A stretch of 42,002 bases of DNA, taken from Campylobacterales bacterium (lineage in GTDB: Bacteria; Campylobacterota; Campylobacteria; Campylobacterales; Sulfurimonadaceae). Positions 1,355-41,765 of this stretch are shown piece after piece. Below the pieces are notes generated by a model that did no database searches, was not told the origin of the DNA, and saw only the letters and a list, made by a program, of their open reading frames with translations. Location of the stretch: positions 1-42,002 of the forward strand of contig JAPLGP010000020.1 in assembly GCA_026390075.1 (NCBI GenBank), written 5' to 3'. A program made the position numbers and the translations under genes. Every line of letters begins with the position of its first letter. The first letter of the stretch is position 1.

Positions 1355-2343
1355 TGAAACTGCTCCAACAATTTAATATCACCCTCAAAAAGAGAGCGAA
1401 GATCACCAATTTGATGAATCAGCATAGTAAATCTCTCAACACCAAGCCCAAAAGCATATCCACTTACATGTTCATATTTAACAGCTTCAAATACATTTGG
1501 ATCTACTATTCCACATCCTAAAACTTCTAACCAACCTGTTTTAGAACAAACACGACATCCCTCACCTTTACAAAAAACACATGAAATATCAACCTCTGCA
1601 GATGGTTCAGTAAAAGGGAAAAAAGATGGACGAAAACGAACTTTCACATCGCCAAACATATATTTTAAAAAATCTTCCAATATATACTTTAAGTTAGCAA
1701 AAGAAACTTTACCCTCTTCATCTACTAAAAGTCCTTCAACTTGATGGAACATAGGCGTATGCGTCAAATCATAATCACGACGAAATACGGCACCTGGTGC
1801 TATCATACGGATTGGTGGTTTTGTACTCATCATCGTTCTAATTTGAACAGGGGAAGTATGTGTTCTTAGAAGCATTTCATCTTTAAAATAAAAAGTATCT
1901 TGCATATCTCTTGCTGGATGATGTTTTGGCAAATTAAGTGCTTCAAAATTATTGAAATCATCTTCTACCATATTACCAGTCTTTACAGCAAAGTTCATCG
2001 CAGAAAAATACTCTACAATTCTATCCATAGTTTCCATAACGGGATGAAGAGCACCCGCTTGACTTTTTGAGCCATATAACGAAACATCTATGTATTCTGC
2101 TTTAAGAGCTTCTTGTAATTCTAGAGTTTGTAAAATTATTTTTTTAGCACTAAACTCATTCATAAGAGCATTTTTATGTGTATTTAATTCTTTTGCAATT
2201 TGTGCTTTTTGATCATCCGTGGCATTTTTCATCTTGGCAAATTCTTCTGCTAAAACACCTTTTTTACCAAAGACAGAAATGCGAATTTCTTCAAGCTTTT
2301 CAACATTCTGTGCCTCTTTTATTGCATCATACCACTCGTTCAA
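1351..2343 (-). CDS. pheS: Phenylalanyl-tRNA synthetase alpha subunit
   Basis: This 330-residue protein is the catalytic subunit of PheRS and pairs with the downstream pheT product. Class II motifs are visible: [11 protein letters not shown] and [12 protein letters not shown] in the middle, [18 protein letters not shown] (motif 2) and [10 protein letters not shown] near the C-terminus (motif 3). A Cys-rich stretch [12 protein letters not shown] lies near residue 265. The start appears to be TTG, not ATG: the nearest upstream ATG (2356) is out of frame, and a GGAG ribosome-binding site lies 7 bases before the TTG. The length matches the family. A divergent gene starts about 125 bp upstream, so the gap probably holds both promoters. 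Confidence 0.96.
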
Positions 2344-2469
2344 ATAGAGTCTCCATAACTATAAAATTTTAATTGGAGATTATAGTCAAAAATAATTTAT
2401 ATATAGCTTCATAAACTGCACTATATTGAAATTTCTATGCTACAATTACTCAAAAACAAGGAAATATTC

Positions 2470-2826
2470 ATGTGTTTATTTTGTAAAATAGTAAAAAAAG
2501 AGATACCTTCAAACATAATTTTAGAAGATGAAAATTTCATCGCTTTTCACGATATTAACCCAAAAGCACCTGTTCATATTTTAGCAATACCTAAAATTCA
2601 TGTCGATAGTTTCAATGAAGTACCCGCAGAACTTATGCAAGGAATGACAACTTTTATGCAAAATGTAGCAAAAGAAGTGAGCATAGATGAGAGTGGGTAC
2701 AGAGTTATAACAAACATTGGTGAAAATGGCGGTCAAGAGGTAAAACATCTCCATTTTCATGTTCTTGGCGGTGCAAAACTCAAATGGGATCACTTTAGCG
2801 ACGCAGACCCACAAGGTCATTTTTAA
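2470..2826 (+). CDS. HIT family nucleotide-binding protein (HinT-like)
   Basis: This 118-residue protein is a histidine-triad nucleotide hydrolase. In this family the triad hydrolyses purine nucleoside phosphoramidates such as adenosine-lysine or adenosine-AMP conjugates. The N-terminal MCLFCKIVKKEIPS, the middle NPKAPVHILAIPK and the C-terminal triad HLHFHVLGG are all intact. I place the start at 2470, not at the upstream in-frame ATG (2437), because AAGGAA sits 6 bases before it and the family normally begins at MxxxFCKI. It is a lone gene divergent from pheS. A long AT-rich inverted repeat follows its stop. Confidence 0.93.
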   Translation: MCLFCKIVKKEIPSNIILEDENFIAFHDINPKAPVHILAIPKIHVDSFNEVPAELMQGMTTFMQNVAKEVSIDESGYRVITNIGENGGQEVKHLHFHVLGGAKLKWDHFSDADPQGHF

Positions 2827-2847
2827 ACTATCATCCACTTTTTTCAG

Positions 2848-2881
2848 GCAAAACCTAAAAAAAACTTTTTTGGTTTTCGCC
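2848..2881. terminator. AT-rich inverted repeat after the HIT gene
   Basis: The arms AAAACC and GGTTTT extend through a T-G wobble into A6/T6, around an AAC loop. GGC and CGCC flank the arms. It could end transcription from both sides, because the A and T tracts lie in the arms. It overlaps the last codons of the small minus-strand ORF. Confidence 0.4.
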
Positions 2882-2968
2882 CCATTCTCTTCGTATCATT
2901 AATGAAAATTCATAAGCCACCATCATCAAAATCCCACATGCCAACAATACAATGCTCATCTCTAACAT
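2855..2968 (-). CDS. Possible 37-residue single-pass membrane protein
   Basis: A short frame begins at ATG 2968 and stops at TAG 2855. AAGGA lies about 7 bases before the start, a good ribosome-binding site. The product starts MLEMSIVLLACGILMMVAYE, a hydrophobic helix of roughly 20 residues, followed by a basic and polar tail (MIRREWGENQKSFF). I do not recognise a family. The helix then positive tail suggests an inner-membrane peptide with its C-terminus in the cytoplasm. One copy of the window's repeated word GGCATGTGG (2934-2942, minus sense) lies inside the frame and encodes part of the helix. It could be a chance ORF; the clear ribosome-binding site is the main argument for it. Confidence 0.4.
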   Translation of the reverse strand: MLEMSIVLLACGILMMVAYEFSLMIRREWGENQKSFF

Positions 2969-3074
2969 TTTATATTCCTTCTTACTTTTCAAAATAATAG
3001 GTAATTTATTTTAGAAATGTGAATTCTATTGCAATTTGTCATAGTTTTTTGATAAAAGAAGGTAAAAAGAGGAA

Positions 3075-3178
3075 TAGACTTATTGCAAAACTAAGATTGC
3101 TTCGTCGTTTCTCCTCGCAATGACGGTCATTGCGAGCGAAGCGAAACAATCTAAAAAGAGAGTTTTGCAAGAAGTCTA
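3075..3178. repeat. 104-bp palindromic MITE-like element, copy 1
   Basis: The outer 18-bp arms (TAGACTTATTGCAAAACT at 3075-3092; its complement with one mismatch at 3161-3178) enclose a second palindrome. The inner palindrome has AGATTGCTTCGTCG on one side, AAACAATCT on the other, and CGCAATGAC/GTCATTGCG at its centre. Copies with similar ends lie at 5132-5237 and 27043-27157. There is no coding capacity, so any movement would depend on an enzyme encoded elsewhere. Confidence 0.8.
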
Positions 3179-3201
3179 ATAAATAATTGGCATGTGCAAA
3201 T

Positions 3202-3235
3202 CTTGGCATGTGGAATTATATTTCCACATGCCAAG
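3202..3235. terminator. Hairpin made of two inverted GGCATGTGG words
   Basis: CTTGGCATGTGGAA (3202-3215) and its exact reverse complement (3222-3235) form a 14-bp stem with a 6-base loop. It lies just past the stop of the minus-strand OsmC-like gene, where a terminator would be expected. A related half-copy, GGCATGTGC, lies at 3189-3197. The same design recurs at 14771-14796. Confidence 0.7.
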
Positions 3236-3255
3236 CAAAAAAATTTAAGAGCTCT

Positions 3256-3720
3256 TTAACTAGGACAGCTCTCTATTTCGCCCATATCTATTTGAGTACC
3301 ACCGCCAGAAATCATCTTTTCATTTTCACGAACAGTATTTCCATTATGGACTATAGAGTACGAAATAGCGGTTGTATCACGAATAGTGTTTATCGTTGAG
3401 CAGTAAGTCTCCAGCGAAGCCATAACCCATCTTGATGCCGTTATATCATCTGCATCTGAGTTGAATTTATATGTTAAATGCAGAGTATTAAATTTTCTAG
3501 GCTGTGTTTCATTTCGTACAACATCGCCATCTATCACTAAATCGGTTACAGTTTTACCCTGATTTTTTGGTATCAAAATCATGTCGGTTGCACTACATGT
3601 AATAATTCCAGCTAAAAAATACTCCACTGGAGAGATTACAGGGCAATCAATCACAAAACTGCTTTTCTCAGTTTTTGCCTCAAATTTCATTCCATCTTGA
3701 TGAGCAACAGTTACTTTCAT
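3256..3720 (-). CDS. OsmC/Ohr family protein
   Basis: This 154-residue protein belongs to the OsmC/Ohr fold, whose studied members reduce organic hydroperoxides with two conserved cysteines. Both are visible, in ITCSATDM (about residue 42) and LETYCSTINTI (about residue 107). The spacing is as expected for the family, including the PVEYFLAGI motif before the first Cys. It follows argH with a 2-base gap, so it is probably the last gene of that transcript, and the hairpin at 3202-3235 lies just after it. Which subfamily it belongs to (OsmC, Ohr or YhfA-like) cannot be settled by eye. Confidence 0.85.
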   Translation of the reverse strand: MKVTVAHQDGMKFEAKTEKSSFVIDCPVISPVEYFLAGIITCSATDMILIPKNQGKTVTDLVIDGDVVRNETQPRKFNTLHLTYKFNSDADDITASRWVMASLETYCSTINTIRDTTAISYSIVHNGNTVRENEKMISGGGTQIDMGEIESCPS

Positions 3721-3722
3721 AT

Positions 3723-5102
3723 TTATATCTCCAAAAACTTTTTAAAATATTCTAACTGCTCTTGTGTTCTAATCGTTGCAGTTCCACCCTCTGAAGTTCG
3801 AGCGTTCATAGAGTTTATAATAGATAAAAACTGTAATACATCTTCGCTTATTCTACTGTCAATCGCTTGAAGGTAAGAGAGTTCTATATCACTCAAATCA
3901 ATTTTCAACTCTTCACTTTTTGCAACTGCTTTACCTGTAATAAAATGCGCTTCACGAAAAGGAATATTGCACTTTTGAACCAAATAATCCGCCAAATCTG
4001 TTGCACTCAAATGCCCAATTTTAGAAGCTTTTTCCATATTATGAGGTTTAATCTGCATAGTTTTAATCGCTTCTTTGAGTATCTCTAACGATATTTCAGC
4101 CGTTTCAACTGCATCAAAAACACCCTCTTTATCCTCTTGCGTATCTTTGTTATAGGCAAGTGGAAGCCCTTTCATAACGGTTAAAAGCCCCATGAGTGAG
4201 CCATAAACACGCCCTGTTTTTCCGCGAAGAAGTTCTGGAACATCGGGATTTTTCTTTTGTGGCATGATAGAAGAACCTGTTGAATACTCATCACTCAGTT
4301 CAACAAAACCAAACTCATAACTTGACCACATTACAAGCTCTTCACTCAAACGAGAAATATGCATCATCATCGTTGCAATATTAAATAAAATTTCGAGTGC
4401 AAAATCTCTATCACTTACCGTGTCCAAACAGTTCACACTCACGCCATCAAAACCTAAAAGTTCTGCTGTCATACCTCTATCTATGGCATGTGGAGTTCCA
4501 GCGAGTGCTGCACAACCAAGAGGAGAAATATTGTTTCTTTTATGTGAACTCTCAAATCTTTCAATATCTCTTTTAAACATAGATAAATACGCACCCAAAT
4601 GAAAACCAAAGTTTATCGGTTGCGCATGTTGTAGGTGTGTCATACCTGGTAAAATTGTATCTGTATGCTTTTGGGCAACCACTAAAACTTCATGCATTAA
4701 AAGTTTTAACGCATCTACAATCTCTAAATTTTTACGCAAAACATAACGGCGAAAATCAACAGCAACTTGATCATTACGACTTCTAGCTGTATGAAGTTTT
4801 TTCCCTGCATCACCGATAATAGCAGTCAAACGCTTTTCAATCGCCATATGCAAATCTTCATCCGAAATTTTCCATTCAAACGCACCTGACTCTATTTCGC
4901 TCATCACTTGATTCAATCCCTCAGTGATTTGGCGAAACTCCTCAGTTGTCAATATATTTTGTTTTGTTAACATTGCGGCATGTGCAAGTGAGCCTTCGAT
5001 ATCTTCACGATAAAGTTTTCTATCAAACATGATAGAGGCATTAAAATTATCTAAAAGACTTGATGCACTTCCAACAAAGCGACCTGACCACATTTTATCC
5101 AT
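3723..5102 (-). CDS. argH: Argininosuccinate lyase
   Basis: This 459-residue enzyme splits argininosuccinate into arginine and fumarate, the last step of arginine synthesis. The fumarase/aspartase superfamily signature [19 protein letters not shown] is intact and carries the catalytic serine loop. [15 protein letters not shown] and [14 protein letters not shown] match the substrate-binding regions. The N-terminus MDKMWSGRF is the standard ArgH start. The gene is full length. One GGCATGTGG word (4485-4493) and one variant (4977-4985) lie inside the coding region. Confidence 0.97.
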
Positions 5103-5131
5103 ATCAATTTCCTTAATTTTATTTTCTATAT

Positions 5132-5237
5132 TAGACTCTCTGGAGAAACTCTCTTTTTAGATTGCTTCACTCCGTTCGCAATGACGGTCATTGCGAGGAG
5201 GAACGACGAAGCAATCTTAAGTTTTACAAGAACTCTA
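5132..5237. repeat. Palindromic MITE-like element, copy 2
   Basis: The inner palindrome (AGATTGCTTCACTCC at 5159, GACGAAGCAATCT at 5205) is the same core as copy 1 at 3075-3178, in the opposite orientation. The outer arms are weaker: TAGACTCTCTGGAGAAACT at 5132, against AGTTTTACAAGAACTCTA ending at 5237. It fills most of the gap between argH and the UbiD-family gene. Confidence 0.75.
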
Positions 5238-5242
5238 TTTAT

Positions 5243-7060
5243 TTATGAAAGTTGATACTCTTTATAAAGCGTATCATCCAAATCCCAAAGACCTCTTTGC
5301 TTGAGTGATTCTACTACACTCTGGGTACAATCAACATCATCTGGCCACTCTCTGGCATATTTATCAAGAGGTGTTTTTTTTGTCCCATCAATTCCAACCA
5401 TAAGTCCTGAAGAAAAAATATCTCTCATTGCATCGATATTGTTGGTAACTCTCCAAACAAGCATATAAGCGTTCGACACATCATTTTTAGCTTCATCTAC
5501 AAACACAACTATTCTTATATTTGTACTTAAACAGATCAATAAATCAAAATACTCTTTTACTGTTTTTGTTTTATTTAACGAGATTACGGTTATAGGATTA
5601 TTTGTATGTCTCATATACTGTTGCAAATTTACAGCATCAGGAATAAACTCTTTTACTTTTTGAAGCAACTCTTCATCGCCTAAAAGTTGTGGAGGGTCAA
5701 CTTTATACGCACCAGTTGCATCGATACCCAATTTTCCACCCACTAATGTTTCAGGAGAGGAATGGTCAAGTGCATCTAAAATTCCCTCAGAAATAAACAT
5801 AGATTTCGGATTAAATCTGTTGAGTATATAAGTTGTAAGGGCTTTATAGTTGTCAAGTCGTGGAGCATTTTCATCTAAAAAGATTGCATGTTTTACAAAA
5901 CTCATCTGTCCTGCACCCCAAAATACATGCATAAACTGCTTTGCATGTCCTTTGTAATGCGGTTGCATTTTTGCAAGGATGAGATTATGAAAACCTCCAT
6001 TTTCTGGCATGTGGTAATCAATCAAATCTGGTGCAGTTGTTTTTAAGAGTGGCAAAAATATTCGCCCAGTTGCCCAACCCATATATTTATCTTCAAGTGG
6101 TGGTTTACCAACAACCGTTGCTAAAAACACTCTCTCTTGTTTCGTTGTAATCGCACTCACTTTCATAAACGGATAGGACTCTTTAAGGGTGTAATATCCT
6201 GTATGATCACCAAATGGACCCTCAGTTTTAAACTCATTTGGATCCACCCAACCCTCGATGACATAATCCACATCTTCTGGAATATAGAGTGGTGTTGTAA
6301 GAGACTTCACAAGTTTCGCTGACTCTTTTTTTATAAGCCCGTACATTAAAAGTTCATTCACTCCAAAAGGAAGTGGTGCTGTTGCACACCAAGTATAGAG
6401 TGGGTCACCGCCGATTGCTACACAAACAGGCATTTTTTTACCTGCTTTTTGGTACTGGTCATACAAATGAGAGGAATCTTTATGAATCTGCCAGTGCATC
6501 CCTAAGTGATTTTTATCATATACTTGAAGTCTGTACATCCCAAGATTTACCAACGCACCATCAAGACTTTGCGTATAAACCTGTCCCATTGTGATAAATG
6601 GACCGCCATCTTGCTCCCATGTTGTTAGAACTGGAATTTTGTGAAGGTCTATCTCATCTTCAAGATATTTGATTTTTTGACAAGCACCCTCACCTTTAAG
6701 GCGTTTTGGAAATATATTTTTTAAAGAAAAAAGTTCACTTGCCATGGAGAGTTTATCTCTAAAACCAACAGGTGGTTTCATGTGTAAAAGTTTTGTTATC
6801 TCATCTGCAACTGATTCGATACTTCTTCCAAAAAGAAGCTCACATCTTTTGTATGAACCAAAAACATTCATCAGAACTGGCTCTTCAAACTTTGTGCCAC
6901 TTTTTTTATCTATAACATTTGTAAACAAAAGAGCTTTGCCACCATCTTGTTTTTTAACTTCAGCATACGCCAAATGCGGTATTTCAAGATAAATATCTAA
7001 TTCATCTTCTATAACTCTAAGTTCATTCTCTTTTTTTAACAGCTTTATAGTTTTTTGCAT
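5243..7060 (-). CDS. UbiD family (de)carboxylase, possibly the MqnL of the futalosine menaquinone pathway
   Basis: At 605 residues this is a full-length UbiD-family enzyme. These enzymes use prenylated FMN to remove or add carboxyl groups on aromatic acids. Family landmarks are EGPFGDHTGYYT (about residue 280), the MGWATGRIFLPLLK region, and AGQMSFVKHAIFLDE. Campylobacterota make menaquinone by the futalosine route, where a UbiD homologue (MqnL) decarboxylates the prenylated naphthoate, so that role is the best guess. It cannot be proven from sequence alone. It starts one base after the hemC stop, so the two genes are co-transcribed. One GGCATGTGG word lies at 6006-6014. Confidence 0.88.
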   Translation of the reverse strand: MQKTIKLLKKENELRVIEDELDIYLEIPHLAYAEVKKQDGGKALLFTNVIDKKSGTKFEEPVLMNVFGSYKRCELLFGRSIESVADEITKLLHMKPPVGFRDKLSMASELFSLKNIFPKRLKGEGACQKIKYLEDEIDLHKIPVLTTWEQDGGPFITMGQVYTQSLDGALVNLGMYRLQVYDKNHLGMHWQIHKDSSHLYDQYQKAGKKMPVCVAIGGDPLYTWCATAPLPFGVNELLMYGLIKKESAKLVKSLTTPLYIPEDVDYVIEGWVDPNEFKTEGPFGDHTGYYTLKESYPFMKVSAITTKQERVFLATVVGKPPLEDKYMGWATGRIFLPLLKTTAPDLIDYHMPENGGFHNLILAKMQPHYKGHAKQFMHVFWGAGQMSFVKHAIFLDENAPRLDNYKALTTYILNRFNPKSMFISEGILDALDHSSPETLVGGKLGIDATGAYKVDPPQLLGDEELLQKVKEFIPDAVNLQQYMRHTNNPITVISLNKTKTVKEYFDLLICLSTNIRIVVFVDEAKNDVSNAYMLVWRVTNNIDAMRDIFSSGLMVGIDGTKKTPLDKYAREWPDDVDCTQSVVESLKQRGLWDLDDTLYKEYQLS

Positions 7061-7061
7061 T

Positions 7062-8003
7062 CTAGTGATTCACCATCATCGCTTCAGCTTCAAGAAGTAA
7101 CTCTTTTGCACCTCTATTTATAAACTCTTGCGCTATTTCTCTTCCTATAGTTTTATAACTCTCTTTTGAAACAATCTTTGTATCACTCAAAATTTTAGTA
7201 CCATTTGGAAGTCCTAAAACTGCATTAACAACTACATCTCCATTGTCTAAAACTGCAGCATTTACACCAATAGGAACATGACAACCACCATTGAGCATAT
7301 CCACAAAATCTCTTTCGATTGTAGTTTCAACTCTACTAGACTCATCTTCTAATCTTGCCACAATTGCTAAAACTTTTGGGTCATTCACGGCTTCTATTCC
7401 TAGAGCACCTTGTCCCATAGATGGAATCATTTCATCAAGTGAAATTGGATAAAAGTACTGAACACTTTTTTGAAGTCCAAGTCTATTAATTCCTGCAGCT
7501 GCAAGTATAATAGCATCAAATTCACCCTCTTTGAGTTTTCTGATTCTTGTATCTACATTTCCTCTTAAATCTTTAATCTTCAAATCTGGTCGTATCTTTT
7601 CAATCTGCATACGGCGACGAAGCGAAGATGTACCGACTGTTGCACCTTTTGGAAGAGAATTTATGTCAGTATATTTTTCAGATAAAAGAGCATCTCTCAC
7701 ATCTTGTCTGTGTGTAATTGCTGCTAAGAGTAACCCCTCAGGCATTACAGTTGGGACATCTTTGAGTGAGTGCACAGCGATTTGCGCTTCACCTCGAAGC
7801 ATAGCCTCTTCTAACTCTTTTAAAAAAAGCCCTTTTCCACCGATAGCAGCGAGTGGTCTATCTATAATTTTATCTCCTGTTGTCACGATAACATTTAATT
7901 CTACTTCTAATCCTGGATTTTGCACTTGTAAAACTGCTTTTATATGGTTTGATTGCCAAAGTGCAAGTTGTGAGCCTCTAGTTGCTATTATTAATTTTTT
8001 CAT
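7062..8003 (-). CDS. hemC: Hydroxymethylbilane synthase (porphobilinogen deaminase)
   Basis: This 313-residue enzyme joins four porphobilinogen units into hydroxymethylbilane for haem synthesis. The opening IATRGSQLALWQSNH, the HSLKDVPTVMPEGL loop with its catalytic Asp region, and GTSSLRRRMQ are classic. The Cys that carries the dipyrromethane cofactor is in LNGGCHVPIGV (about residue 241). It sits in a tight minus-strand run with hemA two genes upstream, so two haem steps share one neighbourhood, as in H. pylori. Confidence 0.97.
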   Translation of the reverse strand: MKKLIIATRGSQLALWQSNHIKAVLQVQNPGLEVELNVIVTTGDKIIDRPLAAIGGKGLFLKELEEAMLRGEAQIAVHSLKDVPTVMPEGLLLAAITHRQDVRDALLSEKYTDINSLPKGATVGTSSLRRRMQIEKIRPDLKIKDLRGNVDTRIRKLKEGEFDAIILAAAGINRLGLQKSVQYFYPISLDEMIPSMGQGALGIEAVNDPKVLAIVARLEDESSRVETTIERDFVDMLNGGCHVPIGVNAAVLDNGDVVVNAVLGLPNGTKILSDTKIVSKESYKTIGREIAQEFINRGAKELLLEAEAMMVNH

Positions 8004-8006
8004 CTT

Positions 8007-8843
8007 TTAGTTAGCCTTTTGATATTTCTTTTTTGTTTTATCCATTTTACCATCAAAAAACAGCGTTGGAGTTCCTTGAACCATCATCTCTTCAGCCATC
8101 TCCGCATCATGCGTAAACTGGTTCATTACTGCAGTTGATTTTAAATCTGATTCTTTTATATCTGTTTTCATCTCTTTGTTAAATGCTGCTAGTATTTTAT
8201 TTATATCTCTCTCTTTTGGGTCTATTTCCACCTTATAAAGATTCAGCACCACATCTTTATTTCCCTTTAATTCAGCAGCAATTGCTGCAAGTGAGAGTTC
8301 TAACGCTGCGGGATGAAGTGAAACAAGTGGAAAATGAAAATAATAAATTGCAAACTTACTAGGTTCTTTTTTCATCTCCTCTATAGCTTTAGGAACGAAA
8401 TCTCTACAAAATGGGCATAATGGGTCAGAAAAGATAACTACTTTATGTTTTGCATCTGCATTCCCATAGATGAGATTCTCTTTTTTATAGTACTCATCTT
8501 TAAACGATGGAGCAACTAAATCTTTTAAATCACTTCCAGTATTGATATCTGTTAGCTCTTTAGTAATGATAGTTCCATTTGTAAACCAAATCATTTTTTG
8601 TTTAACAACTTTATTTTCTGGTTGCGCTTTAACGGTTGCGTCTATCTTGACAATAACAGCATCCCAGCCTTTTAGTTCTTCAATAGCCACTTTATCTACC
8701 ACATTTACTTTTAATGATATGATATTTGGATTGCTTTTAAATGATTCTTCTAAAAACTTCTCGACACTTTTATTTTGTGAACTTGCAAAGAGGGTGCTAC
8801 TTAAAAGAAGCGTTGTCGCTAATAATTTCAACATCAATAACAT
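8007..8843 (-). CDS. Periplasmic thioredoxin-fold disulfide oxidoreductase (DsbC/DsbG-like)
   Basis: This 278-residue protein has a cleavable signal peptide (LKLLATTLLLSSTLFASS), a DsbC-like N-terminal region, and a thioredoxin-fold domain with active site CPFC (about residue 132) and the cis-proline loop GTPTLFFDGK. These are the parts of a periplasmic disulfide isomerase or reductase. The start at 8843 is supported by AAGGA 5-6 bases upstream. It overlaps the 3' end of fxsA by 47 bp. The partner that keeps it reduced is not in the window. Whether it isomerises or oxidises is uncertain. Confidence 0.85.
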   Translation of the reverse strand: MLLMLKLLATTLLLSSTLFASSQNKSVEKFLEESFKSNPNIISLKVNVVDKVAIEELKGWDAVIVKIDATVKAQPENKVVKQKMIWFTNGTIITKELTDINTGSDLKDLVAPSFKDEYYKKENLIYGNADAKHKVVIFSDPLCPFCRDFVPKAIEEMKKEPSKFAIYYFHFPLVSLHPAALELSLAAIAAELKGNKDVVLNLYKVEIDPKERDINKILAAFNKEMKTDIKESDLKSTAVMNQFTHDAEMAEEMMVQGTPTLFFDGKMDKTKKKYQKAN

Positions 8844-9225
8844 TTGAATCCTTTTTTATATGAGTTTGTCCAAAATTTGTTTTGCAATTTCCTGATTTTA
8901 CATTATAACGGTTAACAAGCATAGCGGTAATGACACTAAACTGCATTAATGCGCCGATAATATCTGTTAAAAAACCTGGAAGTATGAGTAAGATAGCACC
9001 AAAAACTGTAAACAGATTTAAGCTTTGAAACTGCTCTAAATCAATGCAGTCATAAGCAACTGCTGTAATATTTTCAACTAATGTTTTTCTAAAATTAAGA
9101 AGTATCATTATCCCAATAACAGCACTTCCAACTATCTCAAGAAAAGTCATAACGCTACCGATAGCTGATGAAATGCTAACCGATACCAATACTTCTAAAA
9201 AAAGATAGATTAAAAAATAGAGCAT
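8797..9225 (-). CDS. fxsA: FxsA family inner-membrane protein
   Basis: This 142-residue membrane protein has four hydrophobic stretches within residues 1-105 and a hydrophilic C-terminal tail. The segment GAILLILPGFLTDIIGALM is the FxsA hallmark. In E. coli FxsA suppresses F-plasmid exclusion of phage T7, but its normal job is unknown. It begins 2 bases after the proS stop and overlaps the following disulfide oxidoreductase gene, so it is part of the same transcript. Confidence 0.85.
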   Translation of the reverse strand: MLYFLIYLFLEVLVSVSISSAIGSVMTFLEIVGSAVIGIMILLNFRKTLVENITAVAYDCIDLEQFQSLNLFTVFGAILLILPGFLTDIIGALMQFSVITAMLVNRYNVKSGNCKTNFGQTHIKKDSNVIDVEIISDNASFK

Positions 9226-9226
9226 T

Positions 9227-10927
9227 TTACAAAAGCCTCATAATTTCATCAAATACTTCATCTTTATTTACAGAAACACTCTCTTTTGTTTTTCTATCAA
9301 ATATCTGCACTAAGCCATTTTCTAGCTCTTTGCCAATAACAATAGTGTAAGGAAAACCAATAAGTTCAGCGTCTTTCATTTTAAAACCAAATCTCTCTTT
9401 TCTATCATCAATCATAACTTCCACATGCCGTGCTTGAAGTTTTTCATAAAGTTCTTCGCCTAATGAAACCTGAGCTGTTTCTTTGATATTTGAAATCATA
9501 ATATTGACCATATAAGGCGCTGTTTCTTTTGTCCAGATACAACCATCTTCATCATGGTGCTGTTCTATAACTGCAGCAACAAGACGGCTCACACCCATTC
9601 CATAAGTTCCCATTACAAAAGGTTGCGCTTTTCCATTTTCATCTAAAAATTCTGCTTTGAGTGTGCTCGAGTAAGTTGTTCCAAGTTTGAAAATATGCCC
9701 AACTTCAATGCCTTTCGTAAAAGAGAGTTTTCCACTGCAATAGGGACAACTATCTCCTTCATTTACGGCTGCAATATCTGCAAAATAGGCTTGACCTAAA
9801 ACCGACATATCTACATTTACAAAGTGATAATCCTCTTCGTTTGCTCCACAAATCATGTTTTTTGCATCTTTTAAATCAATATCTATAACATGTTTCGCTT
9901 TGTCTTGCTCTAATGGCCCGATAAATCCAGCAATGAGACCTAATTCACAGAGTTCTTCTTCACTCACATCTACAATATCTAAAGCACCTGTAGCATTTTG
10001 CGCTTTAACTTCTTGAAGCGTGTCGCATCCTCTTATAAAGAAAAGTACTATTTCGCTATCCTCTTCATAAACAGCTCTTTTTGCAACGCACTTCATCGTG
10101 TAATAACCATCAACTTTAAAAAAGTTTTCTAAATCTTCTATGGTTTTTATATCTGGTGTTTTAAACTTATTAAACTCAGCTACTGGAGCTTCTGGAATGC
10201 TTACTCTGCCAGAGCGTTTTGCCGCTTCAACATTTGCACCATATTCGCATTTACTACAAACAGCGATAGTATCTTCGCCACTTCCGGCCAAAACCATAAG
10301 CTCTTTTGAACCACTTCCGCCGATTGCACCGCTATCTGCTTCAACAATTCTAAAATCAAGTCCAAGTCTAGTTAAAATCTTTTTATATGCTGTTTCCATA
10401 GCATCAAATTCTCTATCCATATCAGCGATGGATGCATGAAAACTATAGCCATCTTTCATGATAAATTCACGACCACGCATAAGCCCGAATCTAGGTCTTG
10501 CCTCATCACGAAACTTTGTTTTTATCTGATAAAGGTTGATTGGAAGTTGTTTGTAACTTGTAATGCGGTTACGAACCATATCCACCATCATCTCTTCATG
10601 TGTTGGCCCTAAAACAAAAAGGTTCTCTTTTCTATCACGAAATCTTAAAAGCTCTTTTCCGAACTTCTCGATGCGTCCACTCTCTTGCCAAAGTGCGGCT
10701 GGAGTTACAAAGCTCAGCTCCACTTCCTCCGCACCAGCTTTTGCCATCTCTTCATTGATAATATTTTCAATTTTTTTAATAACTCTTTTTGCTAATGGCA
10801 TATAGCTGTAAAGTCCACTCGCCACTTGAGAGATAAAACCCGCACGGGAAAGATAAATATGACTTGCTAATGAAGCATCTGAAGGTGCTTCTTTTGTTGT
10901 TGGTATAAATGCTCTACTTCTTCTCAC
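9227..10927 (-). CDS. proS: Prolyl-tRNA synthetase
   Basis: This 566-residue protein is the bacterial-type ProRS that charges tRNA-Pro. Class II motifs are clear: [12 protein letters not shown] near residue 40, [21 protein letters not shown] (motif 2; residues within it are conserved), and [19 protein letters not shown] (motif 3). Between motifs 2 and 3 lies the editing insertion of about 180 residues that clears mischarged alanine. The start ATG overlaps the hemA stop as ATGA. One GGCATGTGG word lies at 9421-9429. Confidence 0.97.
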
Positions 10928-14743: not shown

Positions 14744-14770
14744 AAATCAAGGCAAACACACCACACTAGC

Positions 14771-14796
14771 TGGCATGTGGAAATTTCCACATGCCA
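14771..14796. terminator. Palindrome made of two inverted GGCATGTGG words
   Basis: GGCATGTGG at 14772-14780 and its complement at 14787-14795 are joined by AAATTT, giving a perfect 26-bp palindrome. It lies 10 bases past the rny stop on the minus strand and 28 bases past the methyltransferase remnant on the plus strand. It could therefore end transcripts from both sides. Confidence 0.7.
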
Positions 14797-14805
14797 AGGT
14801 TTTAA

Positions 14806-20488: not shown

Positions 20489-21739
<1,251 letters not shown>

Positions 21740-21746
21740 TTTAAAC

Positions 21747-21819
21747 GCTAAATGAGCAAAGCCCATTTAGCTACGCTAGCCGCTATGGCACTAAAGCACA
21801 AAAATGCTTTCGGCATTTT
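21747..21819 (+). terminator. Two hairpins between nifH and the next gene
   Basis: GCTAAATG (21747-21754) pairs with CATTTAGC (21764-21771), and AAAATGC (21801-21807) pairs with GCATTTT (21813-21819). Both stems are perfect. No long T run follows, so they may stabilise the 3' end of nifH mRNA or act as a leaky terminator, giving more nifH than nifDK transcript. Confidence 0.55.
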
Positions 21820-21913
21820 CGTAAATTTGAAGTCATTGGTTTTCTCCCTTTAACTAGGGGGAATTAACATTCTCATAATGAAAAGAAAATAATAGATAAA
21901 GTAGGAGAAAAAC

Positions 21914-22261
21914 ATGTTTATTTTAGGTTTCCACTTCCCAGCAAGTATGGGTAACACAGTTCCAGATGAAGCAGTAGTTGCAAAATTAGATGAAGCAAAA
22001 GTTGATGTAAGCGGTATAAATGAAATTAAAATGCTTACAGAATATCATGGGCAAAAAGAAGAACTTTCTTACTCTAAGAAAGATACATTTATGTTCAAAG
22101 CTCTTGCACACTATATACAAACAGCAGAAACAGATTATATGATTTACACAAATCGTTACCAAATTTCTGAGCTCTCAAAAAGATTAGATTCTGATGAAGA
22201 AACTATGGCTCTTTGTAAAAAATTTGACTCAATGGCTCACTTTAAAATTACAGCTGCTTAA
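21914..22261 (+). CDS. Unknown 115-residue protein between nifH and nifD
   Basis: I do not recognise this protein. It begins MFILGFHFPASMGNTVPDEA, is slightly acidic, mostly helical by eye, and has one Cys (in MALCKKF). There is no signal peptide or membrane helix. AGGAG lies 6-7 bases before the ATG, and the gene sits squarely in the nifHDK operon, so a nitrogenase role is likely. Archaeal and clostridial nif operons carry two PII-like genes (nifI1 and nifI2) in this slot. The length is similar, but I see no PII signature such as the T-loop YRGAEY. It might regulate or protect the Fe or MoFe protein; that is inference from position only. Confidence 0.85.
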   Translation: MFILGFHFPASMGNTVPDEAVVAKLDEAKVDVSGINEIKMLTEYHGQKEELSYSKKDTFMFKALAHYIQTAETDYMIYTNRYQISELSKRLDSDEETMALCKKFDSMAHFKITAA

Positions 22262-22311: not shown

Positions 22312-23778
22312 ATGAGTTCATTAGAAGCAAGACAAAAAGCGGCGGTTGAGGAAGTTTTAAAAGCATATCCTGAAAAAGCTGCAAAAAACCGTGCAAAACA
22401 CCTAGGTGTTGGTTCTCCAGATGATGAGAGTCAAAAAACATGTGGAAATGTTCGTTCAAACAAAAAAACTGTTGCTGGTGTTATGAGCCAACGCGGTTGT
22501 GCTTATGCTGGTAGTAAAGGCGTTGTTTGGGGACCTGTAAAAGATATGGTTCATATTTCTCACGGTCCAATCGGTTGTGGTCAATACAGCCGTGCAGGTC
22601 GTCGTAACTACTATATCGGTACAACGGGAGTAGATTCGTTTGTAACAATGAACTTCTCTTCAGATTTCCAAGAAAAAGATATCGTTTTTGGCGGTGATAA
22701 AAAACTGACAAAATGTTTGGAAGAAATCGATGTACTTTTCCCACTTAACAATGGTATTACGGTTCAATCTGAGTGTCCAATCGGTCTTATTGGGGATGAT
22801 ATCAACGCAGCGTCAAAAATGTATGCTCAAAAAACTGGTCATACAATCGTTCCTGTAAACTGTGAAGGTTTCCGTGGGGTTTCTCAATCTCTTGGTCACC
22901 ACATTGCAAACGATACAGTGCGTGATTATATCTTCGATGCTTCTCCAGCGACACTTGGTGAACCAATCGCTGTAACTGACTATGATGTTGCAATTATTGG
23001 GGATTATAATATCGGTGGAGATGCTTGGTCGAGCCGTATTTTACTTGAAGAGATGGGTTTACGCGTTGTAGCTCAGTGGTCAGGTGATGCGACGATTAAA
23101 GAGATGGTTCAGACTACAAAAGTGAAACTAAACTTGCTTCACTGCTACCGTTCTATGAACTATATTTCTCGTCATATGGAGAAAGAGTATGGGATTCCTT
23201 GGATAGAGTATAACTTTTTTGGCCCTAGCCAAACGATTAAATCTTTACGAAAAATCGCAGCATTCTTTGATGTAAGTATTCAAGAGAAGTGTGAAGCAGT
23301 TATCGCAAAATATCAACCGCTAGTTGATGCAATAACTAACAAATATCGTCCACTCCTAGAAGGCAAGACAGTAATGTTGTTTGTTGGTGGTTTACGCCCT
23401 CGACATGTTATTGGTGCTTATGAAGATTTAGGTATGGAAGTTATCGGAACTGGGTATGAATTTGCGCATGATGATGACTACAAAAGAACAAAAGATGAAA
23501 TTTTTCGCTCAACTGTAATTTATGATGATGTAAATGAATATGAGCTTGAAGCGTTTGTTAAAGCACTTCAACCAGATTTAGTGGCTTCAGGAATTAAAGA
23601 GAAATATGTATTTCAAAAAATGGGTCTTCCATATAGACAAATGCACTCTTGGGATTATAGCGGACCATATCATGGATATGATGGTTTTGCGATTTTTGCA
23701 TCAGACATGGATTTAGCGATTAACTCTCCAGTTTGGGGACATAGCAAAGCACCATGGGATAAAGAAGGAGAAGCGTAA
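22312..23778 (+). CDS. nifD: Nitrogenase MoFe protein alpha chain
   Basis: This 488-residue protein carries the FeMo cofactor and half of the P-cluster. P-cluster Cys are C63 (RGCAYAG), C89 (GPIGCGQYS) and C155 ([11 protein letters not shown]). The cofactor ligands are C278 ([10 protein letters not shown]) and H445 ([11 protein letters not shown]). All match the Azotobacter positions with small offsets, so this is a Mo-type catalytic subunit and not NifE. The length is normal. Its stop overlaps the nifK start as TAATG. Confidence 0.98.
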
Positions 23779-25322
23779 TGCAAGAGCTTGAAAATATAGT
23801 AAATGGTCAAAGACTATTTCAGCGTCCTGAATATTTAGAAGTTTTAGAAAACAAAAAACAATTCGAAGGCGGCATGGGTGCAATAAATCCTGCTAAAGTT
23901 GAAGAGATTGCAGAGTGGACTAAAAGCTGGGATTACAGAGAGAAAAACTTAGCGCGTGAGGCTATAACAGTTAATCCTGCAAAAGCATGTCAACCTCTTG
24001 GTGCTGTAATGGTAGCTTTAGGTTTTGAAAATACTATGCCTTATGTTCATGGGTCTCATGGATGTGTTGCGTATTTTCGTTCATACTTTACAAAACACTT
24101 TAAAGAGCCGACTCCTTGTGTTTCTGATTCTATGACAGAAGATGCAGCAGTTTTTGGCGGTCTTGCAAATATGAAAGATGGTCTTAAAAACTGTGCAGCA
24201 CTTTATAAACCTGAGATGATTGCAGTTTCTACTACTTGTATGGCTGAAGTTATCGGTGATGACTTGTATGCGTTTGCACTTGCTGCAAAAGAAGAAGATG
24301 GTGGTGAATTTTTACCAGCCGATTTTCCTATAACTTATGCACATACACCATCATTTACTGGAAGTCATATCACTGGTTATGATAACATGATGCATGGTAT
24401 TATGTCTCAGCTTACTGAGGGTAATAAAAAAGAAGAAACAAATGGAAAAATTAACATTATTCCAGGGTTTGAAACTTACATAGGTTCAATCCGTTCGGTC
24501 AAAGCTATCGTTGAAGCTTTTGGTGCAAGTTACACAATGTTAGGCGACCACTCTGATCAGTGGGACATGCCAGCGGGTGATTACAGTATGTTTGCTGGTG
24601 GAACGCCTATTGCAGATGCAAAAGATTGTATCAATGCTAAAGCGACTATTTCACTTCAAAAATATGCAACTGTAAAAACTATGAAAATGGTTAAAAAGTG
24701 GAAACATGCGGGTGGCGTTTCTAACCCAATAGGTCTAAAAGGAACGGATGAGTTCGTTATGAAGCTTTCAGAACTAACAGGTGTTGAAGTTCCACAGAAA
24801 CTCAAAGTTGAACGCGGTCGTTTAGTGGATGCTATGCAGGATTCTTATCCTTACATGCACGCTAAAAAATTCGCAATCTGGGGAGACCCTGACTTTTTAG
24901 TGGGCGTGGTTTCATTTTTACTTGAAATGGGTGCATATCCAACACATGTTCTTTGTCACAATGCACCAAAAGGTTGGGAAGATGAGATGAGAGCTATGCT
25001 TGACACATCCCCTGCAGCGGCAAACTGTCATGTATGGGCTGGAAAAGATTTATGGCACATGCGAAGTTTACTCTTCACAGAACCAGTTGATTTTATGATT
25101 GGTAACAGTTACGGAAAAGAGCTTATGCGTGATACGAAAATACCGTTAATCTACATAGGTTTCCCGATATTTGACCGTCACCACTTACACCGTTATTCAA
25201 TCAGCGGATACGATGGTGCCCTAAACTTATTGACTTGGATTACAAATAAAGTTCTAGATCAGTTAGATGAAGAGACAAAAAACATCGCTTCAACTGACTA
25301 CTTCTTTGACTTAGTTCGTTAA
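23778..25322 (+). CDS. nifK: Nitrogenase MoFe protein beta chain
   Basis: This 514-residue partner of NifD forms the alpha2-beta2 dinitrogenase. P-cluster Cys are C71 (NPAKACQPLGA), C96 (GSHGCVAYFRS) and C154 (STTCMAEVIGDD). The conserved PVDFMIGNSYGKEL and GFPIFDRHHLHRY regions are near the C-terminus. It is translationally coupled to nifD. The stop is followed by two strong hairpins, so the first nif transcript likely ends here. Confidence 0.98.
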   Translation: MQELENIVNGQRLFQRPEYLEVLENKKQFEGGMGAINPAKVEEIAEWTKSWDYREKNLAREAITVNPAKACQPLGAVMVALGFENTMPYVHGSHGCVAYFRSYFTKHFKEPTPCVSDSMTEDAAVFGGLANMKDGLKNCAALYKPEMIAVSTTCMAEVIGDDLYAFALAAKEEDGGEFLPADFPITYAHTPSFTGSHITGYDNMMHGIMSQLTEGNKKEETNGKINIIPGFETYIGSIRSVKAIVEAFGASYTMLGDHSDQWDMPAGDYSMFAGGTPIADAKDCINAKATISLQKYATVKTMKMVKKWKHAGGVSNPIGLKGTDEFVMKLSELTGVEVPQKLKVERGRLVDAMQDSYPYMHAKKFAIWGDPDFLVGVVSFLLEMGAYPTHVLCHNAPKGWEDEMRAMLDTSPAAANCHVWAGKDLWHMRSLLFTEPVDFMIGNSYGKELMRDTKIPLIYIGFPIFDRHHLHRYSISGYDGALNLLTWITNKVLDQLDEETKNIASTDYFFDLVR

Positions 25323-25891: not shown

Positions 25892-26266
25892 TTAAAAACC
25901 ATGCTCTTTTAGAAACATCGCAAGTTGCGAATCTATGTTAATAATGTGGCGTTTAAATTTATCGTAAGCGTATTCGTGGATGTAGGATTTTCCAAATGTA
26001 GGAAATTTTTTGGCTTTGTTATAAAAGTATTCCATCTCGCCGAGCAAGTTTGCATGTTCATCCAAATGCTCTTGTTTACCATAAAAATTATGCTGATTCA
26101 TAATCTCTTCTTCGTAAGCAAAATGCTCTTTTGTATGGGCTATCATCTCTTCAAAAAGAGGCATAAATTCACTCTTGGAACAAGTTTTTATTTGAGAAAG
26201 TAAGGCTAAAAATGCATCGTGTGTTGCATCCATACTTTCGATGTTAAGGTGGAGATTATCGCTCAT
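25892..26266 (-). CDS. Bacteriohemerythrin
   Basis: This 124-residue single-domain hemerythrin binds O2 reversibly at a di-iron site. The ligands are visible in order: H (MDATHDAF), H and E (HTKEHFAYEEEIM), H and H (HLDEHANLLGEM), and H with D near the end (FKRHIINIDSQLAMF). It has no fused signalling domain, so it probably buffers or delivers O2. Next to nitrogenase it may shield the enzyme or supply a terminal oxidase. That is inference. Confidence 0.92.
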   Translation of the reverse strand: MSDNLHLNIESMDATHDAFLALLSQIKTCSKSEFMPLFEEMIAHTKEHFAYEEEIMNQHNFYGKQEHLDEHANLLGEMEYFYNKAKKFPTFGKSYIHEYAYDKFKRHIINIDSQLAMFLKEHGF

Positions 26267-26333
26267 ACTTTCTCTCTTATCTCTAGTTTATATTTTCTTT
26301 AAATGAATATGCAATTTCTAAACTAGAAATCTT

Positions 26334-26435
26334 GGCATGTGGAAATCCTATAGAATTCAACCCTTTAAAATTTAGATTTCCTCGTTCCATCCTCTCCTAA
26401 GCTAGAATGCATACTAAAATCAAAATCCACATGCC
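26334..26435. repeat. Inverted GGCATGTGG pair flanking a degenerate palindromic repeat
   Basis: The word at 26334-26342 (plus) and its complement at 26427-26435 bracket a repeat reading TCGTTCCATCCTCTCC then AGAATGCATAC (about 26377-26414). The same repeat, followed by the same inverted word, lies at 28160-28227 before nifE. The arms could pair over a long loop. Confidence 0.65.
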
Positions 26436-26494
26436 AAGAAGTAAAATTTCGACTAGCACACTCTATGCAGTACCATTTTTAAAAGGATAATCCC

Positions 26495-27461: not shown

Positions 27462-28130
27462 GTGATAAAAGAATTTGAATTTATTAGACCATTAAATGCA
27501 CAAGTATCTGAAGAAGAAATAATTTTAGATTTAAAGTCTGTCGCTAAACAGTTGGCAAAAGAGAGTGTTACTCAATTGGCTTATAGTAAACTTGGAAAAT
27601 ATGATTATACTACTGTAAGTCGTAAATTTGGTACATGGAATAAAGCTTTAAAAATTGCTAACCTTTCTTTTTCAAATGAAAGTAATATTTCTGATGAGCG
27701 TTTATATGAAAATATTTTAAAAATTTGGCAACATTTTGGTCGTCAACCTAGGCGTAGAGATTTAACTTCTGAAATATCAGAATTTTCACAAAGTCCATAC
27801 AATCGTAGATTTATGACATGGACAAATACTTTGCAAAGTTTTGTTGATTATGCTAATGGTGAAGATTTAAAGATGCCAAATCCAAATGCGAATGCGAATG
27901 ATATTAATAATAAATTAAAAATAGGACGAGATCCATCATTAAGATTGCGATATAGAGTTTTGCAAAGGGATTATTTTACTTGTAAGCAATGTGGGGCAAG
28001 TCCATCTAAAAATCCAAATGTAGTATTACATATTGACCATATTATTCCATGGAGCAAAAATGGAGAAACAGTGTTAGAAAATTTACAAACTCTTTGTTCA
28101 GATTGTAATTTAGGCAAAAGCAACTTATAA
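27462..28130 (+). CDS. HNH endonuclease with two homing-endonuclease-associated repeats
   Basis: This 222-residue protein starts with GTG, preceded by AAGGAA. Residues about 15-65 and 80-130 are two related repeats ending in FGTWNKAL and FMTWTNTL, as in the DNA-binding repeats that accompany homing-type HNH enzymes. The nuclease domain at the C-terminus has CKQCGASPSKNP, then HIDHIIPWSKNG, then LQTLCSDCNLGKSN, giving the HNH residues and two Zn-binding CxxC pairs. It lies 10 bp after the broken antitoxin in the block that splits the nif genes. It may be a mobile or defence nuclease; its target is unknown. Confidence 0.88.
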   Translation: MIKEFEFIRPLNAQVSEEEIILDLKSVAKQLAKESVTQLAYSKLGKYDYTTVSRKFGTWNKALKIANLSFSNESNISDERLYENILKIWQHFGRQPRRRDLTSEISEFSQSPYNRRFMTWTNTLQSFVDYANGEDLKMPNPNANANDINNKLKIGRDPSLRLRYRVLQRDYFTCKQCGASPSKNPNVVLHIDHIIPWSKNGETVLENLQTLCSDCNLGKSNL

Positions 28131-28159: not shown

Positions 28160-28273
28160 TTTCTCGTTTCATCCTCTCCCGAGGTGGAATGCATACAAAA
28201 TCACAGCTTCATAAAAATCCACATGCCAATTAAAAATCAAAAAATGTAAAAGCCATCCAATCTTGGCATGTGG
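28160..28273. repeat. Second palindromic repeat and inverted GGCATGTGG pair before nifE
   Basis: TCGTTTCATCCTCTCC then GGAATGCATAC (about 28160-28196) matches the repeat at 26377-26414. CCACATGCC at 28219-28227 and GGCATGTGG at 28265-28273 face each other. The nifE promoter should lie after this, where TATACA at about 28352 is a weak -10 candidate. Confidence 0.65.
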
Positions 28274-28372
28274 AAGTAAAAACAAAACTAAAACCCCATA
28301 AAACAGCCACTTTTCCCCTCTCTCGAACAAAACTTGCAGTAGCACTTTTTATACAGCTCCAAAGGGGTATTT

Positions 28373-33373: not shown

Positions 33374-33420
33374 AAGCGTCAAACAGACGCTTAGTAATAT
33401 TTAGTCAATGCTATGACTAA
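33374..33420 (+). terminator. Two adjacent hairpins before the ferredoxin gene
   Basis: AAGCGTC/GACGCTT (33374-33392) and TTAGTCA/TGACTAA (33401-33420) are perfect 7-bp stems, followed by an A-rich stretch up to the ferredoxin ribosome-binding site. They could separate ferredoxin expression from nifZ or protect the downstream mRNA. Confidence 0.5.
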
Positions 33421-33442
33421 AAATAAAACAAAGGAAAAAACA

Positions 33443-33733
33443 ATGACAACACGCGTAGAGATTATAAATGACTTTTTAGCAATCAATGTTATACCAGGCA
33501 AAACGATTCAAGACATAGTTGAAGCTTCTGGAAGTGCATTGCCATTTGGTTGCCGTGATGGAGAGTGTGGTACTTGTATAGTAAGTATCGAATCAGGAAT
33601 GGAATTTTTAAGTGATGTAACTGACAAAGAAGTAGCAGTTATGAAAATGTTAAATGAAACAAGCCCAAAAGCGCGTCTTTCATGCCAAATGAAAATCGTA
33701 AAATCAAATGGTGTTATCCGTCTTAAATACTAG
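33443..33733 (+). CDS. 2Fe-2S ferredoxin (plant type)
   Basis: This 96-residue protein has the plant-type cluster motif GCRDGECGTC (about residues 35-44) with the fourth Cys in LSCQM near residue 81. It carries low-potential electrons, probably to nitrogenase, similar to FdxH-type proteins in other nif clusters. I take the ATG at 33443 with AAGGAA 6-7 bases upstream; an in-frame earlier start adds MTKNKTKEKT and has no good signal. It is the last gene of the nif locus. Confidence 0.92.
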   Translation: MTTRVEIINDFLAINVIPGKTIQDIVEASGSALPFGCRDGECGTCIVSIESGMEFLSDVTDKEVAVMKMLNETSPKARLSCQMKIVKSNGVIRLKY

Positions 33734-40890: not shown

Positions 40891-41758
40891 ATTTTATTTT
40901 AGCATTTTGAGAGTTTTGAGTAATCTCAACCACAACATCTAAATAAGGCTCAAAATAGCTTGTCTTAAACCGAGAAAGAGCCTTTTTTTCTTCACTACTT
41001 AAATTTAAATTTTCTAAAAGCTTATATGCACCTCCACCTAAAGTAAGCTGTTTTGCTCTTGATGTATCACAGCCAAGCATCATTTGCCAGGTTGGAGGTG
41101 TCGCATAATTGAGGTCAATTTTACTACTTTTATCTTTAGTAAAATAAAAAAGATTTTCAAAATCTATATTTTTTAGACTGTTGTCATGATACGATTGCAT
41201 ATAAAAATTGTTGACCTCACGCAAGTGTTTGCTTGAAGTAATATACTCTCTAAAAAGAGAAGGTTTTTCATGAAAAATACCACTATTGTAGGACATATCT
41301 TCTTTAATTCCACCCATTGCATCAAGTAAAATTGAAATATACTCACTACGAACATTGTTGGTAGTCATATACTGTGTTAAAGCATTTGTTGTCTCATGGT
41401 TGATTGTATTATTGTTCTCAATCAAACTATTTGGATTAAACTTTTTTCTTGCACTACTTATCTTTATGCTCACTTTCATGCCTGAATTCTCAAAAGGAAT
41501 AAACGATACACTTGATAAAAAAGCAAAAAATCCTTCGCTAGATTTCTGTTGCACTATCGTATCTAACTCTTTTGAAGTTTTTAAAATATTTAAAACATCA
41601 TCTAAAGTAGTGCTTGTTTGAAGCATAAAGTTTTCATTTTCCACATGCCAAGATGCTTCCTTGACTTGTTTAAGTCCAATGCCGATAGCAACCGTAATCG
41701 CCATAACAAAAAGAACGGTTATCAGTAAAGCGATGCCTCTTTTTTTTAGTTTCCACAT
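40838..41758 (-). CDS. gspK: Type II secretion minor pseudopilin GspK
   Basis: This 306-residue protein has the pseudopilin start MWKLKKRGIALLITVLFVMA and a large globular domain (NYATPPTWQMMLG fits the GspK alpha domain). GspK caps the pseudopilus tip. I prefer ATG 41758, because the earlier in-frame GTG at 41776 lacks a ribosome-binding site and lies inside gspF. The ATG is part of a GGCATGTGG word (41753-41761), and a second lies at 41641-41649, where it encodes part of the N-terminal region. Confidence 0.85.
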   Translation of the reverse strand: MWKLKKRGIALLITVLFVMAITVAIGIGLKQVKEASWHVENENFMLQTSTTLDDVLNILKTSKELDTIVQQKSSEGFFAFLSSVSFIPFENSGMKVSIKISSARKKFNPNSLIENNNTINHETTNALTQYMTTNNVRSEYISILLDAMGGIKEDMSYNSGIFHEKPSLFREYITSSKHLREVNNFYMQSYHDNSLKNIDFENLFYFTKDKSSKIDLNYATPPTWQMMLGCDTSRAKQLTLGGGAYKLLENLNLSSEEKKALSRFKTSYFEPYLDVVVEITQNSQNAKIKFEYDISTKKGSNFVYEI

Positions 41759-41765
41759 GCCAAGC

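Follow-up and report, generated by a model that had tools for sequence, protein, structure and literature searches.

Small proteins that are encoded among the structural genes of nitrogenase, or that act on the enzyme, have been described in several systems. NifI1 and NifI2, two PII proteins, are encoded alongside the structural genes in the slot between nifH and nifD. AnfG and VnfG, the delta subunits, are small proteins whose genes lie among the structural genes of one nitrogenase type, CowN (PF20543) is a small nitrogenase-protective protein, and FeSII (Shethna protein II), a small protein that acts on the NifH-NifDK complex, is a [2Fe-2S] ferredoxin (PMC11301756). The DNA analysed here (the window, 42,002 nucleotides from a Campylobacterales bacterium) carries in the nifH-nifD slot a gene, here called X, that shares with NifI1/NifI2 its location, the small size of its product and its place alongside the structural genes; position alone does not confer membership, and X differs in being a single gene whose sequence is unrelated to PII. 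Its surroundings are as follows.

20732 to 20747, forward strand: weak sigma-54-like candidate, TAGAATAGAGGTTGCA
20831 to 21739, forward strand: nifH, nitrogenase Fe protein (Fer4_NifH, E 1e-114)
21071 to 21112, forward strand: NifH insertion region (nifH residues ~81-94; insertion of about 9 residues)
21740 to 21913, forward strand: nifH-X spacer, RNA fold more stable than 199 of 200 shuffles (z -2.7)
21903 to 21907, forward strand: ribosome-binding site of X, AGGAG
21914 to 22261, forward strand: gene X, 115-residue protein of an undescribed family, ATG at 21914 and TAA at 22259-22261 (115 codons), motifs MFxxGxHFPAxxGN (residues 1-14) and NxYQxSExSK (residues 80-89)
22312 to 23778, forward strand: nifD, MoFe protein alpha subunit
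23778 to 25322, forward strand: nifK, MoFe protein beta subunit, directly after nifD

The open reading frame of X is real, far beyond chance. The initial annotation had called it a well-supported 115-residue frame between nifH and nifD, and this is borne out by the ribosome-binding motif, which precedes X in 133 of 135 loci, by relatives that are intact at 37-97% identity, and by dN/dS values that are low (0.05-0.14 in nearly all tested pairs, with one close pair at 0.36 and another at 0.04); X evolves under purifying selection. Across 98 non-redundant loci, Met1, Phe2, Gly5, Phe8, Gly13, Val21, Ala63, Tyr82 and Gln83 are invariant, and His7, Pro9, Ala10, Asn14, Asn80, Ser88, Lys89, Asp92, Asp105 and Met107 nearly so. 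The invariant Met1-Phe2 pair and the conserved residues that follow support the assigned start codon and point to a functional N-terminal segment.

Searches of X against Pfam (spanning 48 members of the X family), NCBIfam, PHROGs and PDB sequences (with the family profile) gave no match above background, so that the protein stands outside known families, as had been supposed. The same annotation had seen no PII features, and here too the comparisons agree: PF00543 is unmatched in X and the 48 members, and an hhalign comparison of profiles against NifI1, NifI2 and a nif-linked PII is blank (probability about 0.3% or less). Nothing was found by hhalign against CowN, NifW, NifZ, NifX, AnfG or a Fer2 protein either; PF20543 is likewise unmatched, CowN being a separate gene in 24 of the 41 genomes tested. 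AlphaFold2 models X with confidence (48-row alignment; pLDDT 93, pTM 0.86) as two short N-terminal strands, a helix, a beta hairpin, three helices and a C-terminal strand. A Foldseek search of this model against the PDB and viral models returned nothing at E 0.001; among the structures on Foldseek's list, the nearest when re-compared with VIA is the N-terminal domain of DapD (PDB 2rij, 3r5a-3r5d), with 99 residues aligned at an rmsd of 4.3 and a Z of 5.8 against 2rij, a value under the reliability level of the tool, the next unrelated rows being at Z 2.4. An hhalign score of 15.0 between X and DapD lies within column-permuted controls (up to 18.4), and without sequence support the likeness amounts at most to a shared arrangement. 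In the literature searched we found no description of the X gene or of the NifH insertion considered below, and the passages on nif genes that we consulted in papers on Campylobacterota do not mention X; neither this literature nor the libraries searched describe the family.

A striking association with Mo-nitrogenase is evident from the distribution of X. Scanning 84,980 species genomes yielded 117 relatives, and the best 80 of these carry Campylobacterota-type names, bar a few labelled only 'bacterium' or 'Proteobacteria', whose listed records have X and NifH of Campylobacterales type; none was found in viral contigs, phages or plasmids, in a plasmid collection that includes many rhizobial nif plasmids. 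Our main survey covered 397 high-quality genomes from Campylobacterales, the order of the window; X and full-length Mo-type nifD are each present in 73 of them and coincide in 72, which leaves two mismatches. The genome with Mo-type nifD and no visible X (G482) has a contig that stops 89 bases upstream of nifD, which leaves the slot of X out of view. One further genome (G461) has partial nif genes only. In the second mismatch (G333), X lies between nifH and nifD genes that are both frameshifted. In this last locus (L138; G333:C1:1434000-1442000) the frameshifts break nifH, nifD and nifK while X stays open, through either decay or assembly error, and a second NifH-like gene of the genome sits in an unrelated nitrogenase-like cluster. 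A smaller class-level draw agrees, the rows shown being all Campylobacterales and overlapping the 397-genome draw; Nautiliales and other phyla are weakly sampled.

The gene order is nifH-X-nifD, on a single strand, in every locus where both neighbours are visible, with flanking spacers of 10-272 and 7-329 bases (131 loci). The initial annotation had suggested a lineage-specific regulator or protector and had asked whether the position in nifH-X-nifD is constant, an interpretation that is partly supported: lineage specificity holds within one order, Campylobacterales, and the position in every locus there that shows both neighbours, X turned up neither in non-diazotrophs nor in unrelated contexts, and a role as regulator or protector is plausible. 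X also moves with its neighbours over evolutionary time. Two X types (~40% identity) occur within the window's genus, each paired with its own type of NifH and NifD, and over 98 loci the distances between X proteins correlate at 0.93 with those of NifD and at 0.85 with those of NifH; as far as such distances tell, X travels with the operon. In the Sulfuricurvum MAG STA_65, nifH-X-nifD is found on two contigs (L067 and L068), reflecting a duplicated operon or mixed strains.

Cotranscription of nifH-X-nifDK is inferred from this arrangement and from the promoter-like sites. A scan of the window itself for GG-N10-GC gave no site; in related loci such a site (<=2 mismatches) lies 5' of nifH in 27 of 126, and sigma-54-like sites are nearly missing from the nifH-X and X-nifD spacers, with none in the nifH-X spacer of most loci, a pattern that fits a single operon. 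The stably folding nifH-X spacer may perhaps act in the processing or stability of the mRNA, so as to favour NifH over NifDK in amount.

A single intact nif locus in the 397-genome survey is without X (G103), and there two PII genes, NifI1 and NifI2, fill the slot; the earlier comparison of this position with the nifI slot thereby gains a concrete case. NifI1/NifI2 and X are mutually exclusive in the surveyed loci. The NifHDK of G103 is of a different type, its NifH is without the insertion, and we classify this NifHDK, from the NifI genes and a lower TIGR01282 score, as apparently cluster-III-like; the nifH-nifI1-nifI2-nifDK operon (L137; G103:C14:1-14000, 2105-9463) was likely acquired horizontally. 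X is also absent from the Fe-only clusters of three genomes (G108, G319 and G120), where AnfD, AnfG and AnfK occur without it. The constant nifH-X-nifD context, taken with these X-less loci, ties X to the Mo-nitrogenase group common to Campylobacterales.

The neighbouring Fe protein has an insertion, not noticed in the initial annotation, that is the best new clue to a partner of X. NifH of the window is ~9 residues longer than the A. vinelandii type, directly ahead of the Cys85 strand, and the extra length falls, in A. vinelandii numbering, between K77 and C85. All readable NifH proteins adjoining X carry an insertion at this site, of 9-12 residues, with two length classes that differ by three residues. 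The 23 distinct solved NifH-like PDB chains (23/23) align over about 11 residues fewer than the window's NifH, and a 52-residue NifH query that includes the insertion matched 249 plasmid records, of which the 30 best rows span 43 codons, indicating that the insertion is absent from these 30 best matches. The association of X with the insertion suggests that the loop could be the docking site of X. Both may go back to a single common origin, in which case their association does not represent independent events. A model of a NifH-linker-X read-through (23-row alignment) leaves the NifH part mostly at pLDDT <60, with a pTM of 0.37, because of the shallow alignment on the NifH side.

Together, the exclusivity and conservation of X strongly support an accessory role, and X is very probably a dedicated nitrogenase accessory protein. 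Because it is essentially universal with Mo-nitrogenase and comes with a shared NifH loop, X probably belongs to the nitrogen-fixing enzyme of Campylobacterales as an accessory component not described before. For the mechanism, our best explanation, to which we assign a probability of about 0.4, is that X would bind a nitrogenase component, likely at the Fe protein loop, to tune, protect or mature it. X would be co-produced with the Mo-nitrogenase from the nifH-X-nifDK operon, as a small soluble alpha/beta protein according to the model; its target would be one of the nitrogenase components, with the Fe protein the likeliest and the lineage-specific loop or its vicinity as the site, and its invariant N-terminal and NxYQxSExSK segments as the predicted contacts; and, once bound, it may tune or protect Fe protein-MoFe protein turnover, by analogy with NifI1/NifI2 or FeSII elsewhere. 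The insertion favours NifH as the partner, and we give the binding of NifH by X a little less than an even chance; NifDK is a possible alternative, since the X distances fit NifD slightly better than NifH. The narrower proposal, that a new partner with an unlinked fold docks on the Fe protein loop and controls or stabilises Mo-nitrogenase turnover, is a tentative one. Whether X acts in regulation or protection rather than in maturation is similarly a leaning held with reserve, the two being about as likely.

These questions matter because nitrogenase operons are among the best studied, yet the structural operon of an entire order of diazotrophs, and of environmentally important ones, appears to contain an essentially universal gene that has no name, paired with a corresponding alteration of the Fe protein. 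Should X be required, this would bear on the transfer of Campylobacterales nitrogenase to other hosts, and a new means of regulating, protecting or assembling the enzyme could come to light; culturable diazotrophs, e.g. Sulfurospirillum or Arcobacter-type species, would allow a direct test of the hypothesis.

Other nitrogenase-associated proteins of X-bearing genomes bear on which role might be vacant. A GlnB-type PII and a divergent PII are present, and CowN is frequent; in the window's genome, G056 and G275 the divergent PII has an rpoN-like gene and further nif-related genes close by. The roles of regulator and CO-protector may thus be filled already. A search for DraT found no match in 41 genomes, nor in the control genomes, so that this result does not speak for its absence. 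The window also encodes NifW, NifZ, NifX, a flavodoxin, a [2Fe-2S] ferredoxin and a hemerythrin, and with these added to PII and CowN, X fills no obvious vacancy. The divergent PII is a protein of 132 aa with a C-terminal extension (L178, 9823-10221; L180, 15655-16053; L182, 4550-4948).

Of the alternatives, the one that survives best, though doubtful, is that X serves assembly and not control, by helping the insertion-bearing Fe protein, or else NifDK, to mature or fold, in a role like that of NifM, NifZ, NifW or NafY. The retention of X in all assessable Mo-nitrogenase loci fits a required maturation step, and its gene is flanked by genes of both components and missing from the Fe-only clusters. 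This last point, however, cuts both ways: the Fe-only clusters in the same genomes have no intact NifH beside them and may share the NifH of the other system, and a NifH-specific chaperone would then serve both. The window, moreover, already encodes NifW, NifZ and NifX, none of which X resembles.

It is unlikely that X functionally replaces NifI1/NifI2 as an ammonium-responsive nitrogenase inhibitor of unrelated fold. The shared slot and the presence of NifI1/NifI2 there in the one intact X-less locus speak for it, but this is a single exchange that arrived with a different type of NifHDK, and could therefore be the replacement of a whole operon; the GlnB-type and nif-linked PII proteins of X-bearing genomes also weigh against it.

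Many Campylobacterota are microaerobic, which, with the operon position of X, would accord with an oxygen protector that, like FeSII, holds NifH and NifDK together in a complex which is inactive and resists oxygen. The likeness to FeSII is one of proposed role only: the X protein of the window has a single cysteine, no [2Fe-2S] motif and no Fer2 or ferredoxin match, and so lacks the means by which FeSII senses redox, and the nif region has a separate, weakly FeSII-like Fer2 protein as well as the hemerythrin, making oxygen protection by X quite improbable. Least probable is that X adds a further small structural subunit to the MoFe protein, as a counterpart of the AnfG/VnfG delta subunit, to which it is similar in size, in having a gene among the structural genes and in being exclusive to one nitrogenase type, but from which it differs in profile (hhalign probability 0.06% against three AnfG proteins of the surveyed genomes) and in gene order, lying between H and D (H-X-D) and not between D and K (D-G-K).

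Several further features of the window were noted around the operon. The [2Fe-2S] ferredoxin gene (33413-33733, forward strand) lies 3' of nifZ, and its best solved match is Ferredoxin-4 (9i2a), with FeSII weaker. The hemerythrin gene (25892-26266, reverse strand) is in the interval between nifK and nifE, and in locus L182 a hemerythrin-like gene adjoins a CowN gene. The same nifK-nifE interval holds a gene for an HNH endonuclease with homing-endonuclease-associated repeats (27462-28130, forward strand). Finally, the sequence TTGGCATGTGGA occurs in 20 copies in the window (<=1 mismatch; 0.2 expected), many of them as inverted pairs, e.g. at 3203-3234, 14770-14797, 26332-26437, 28218-28274 and 41640-41763, and is an interspersed palindromic repeat of the window's genome.
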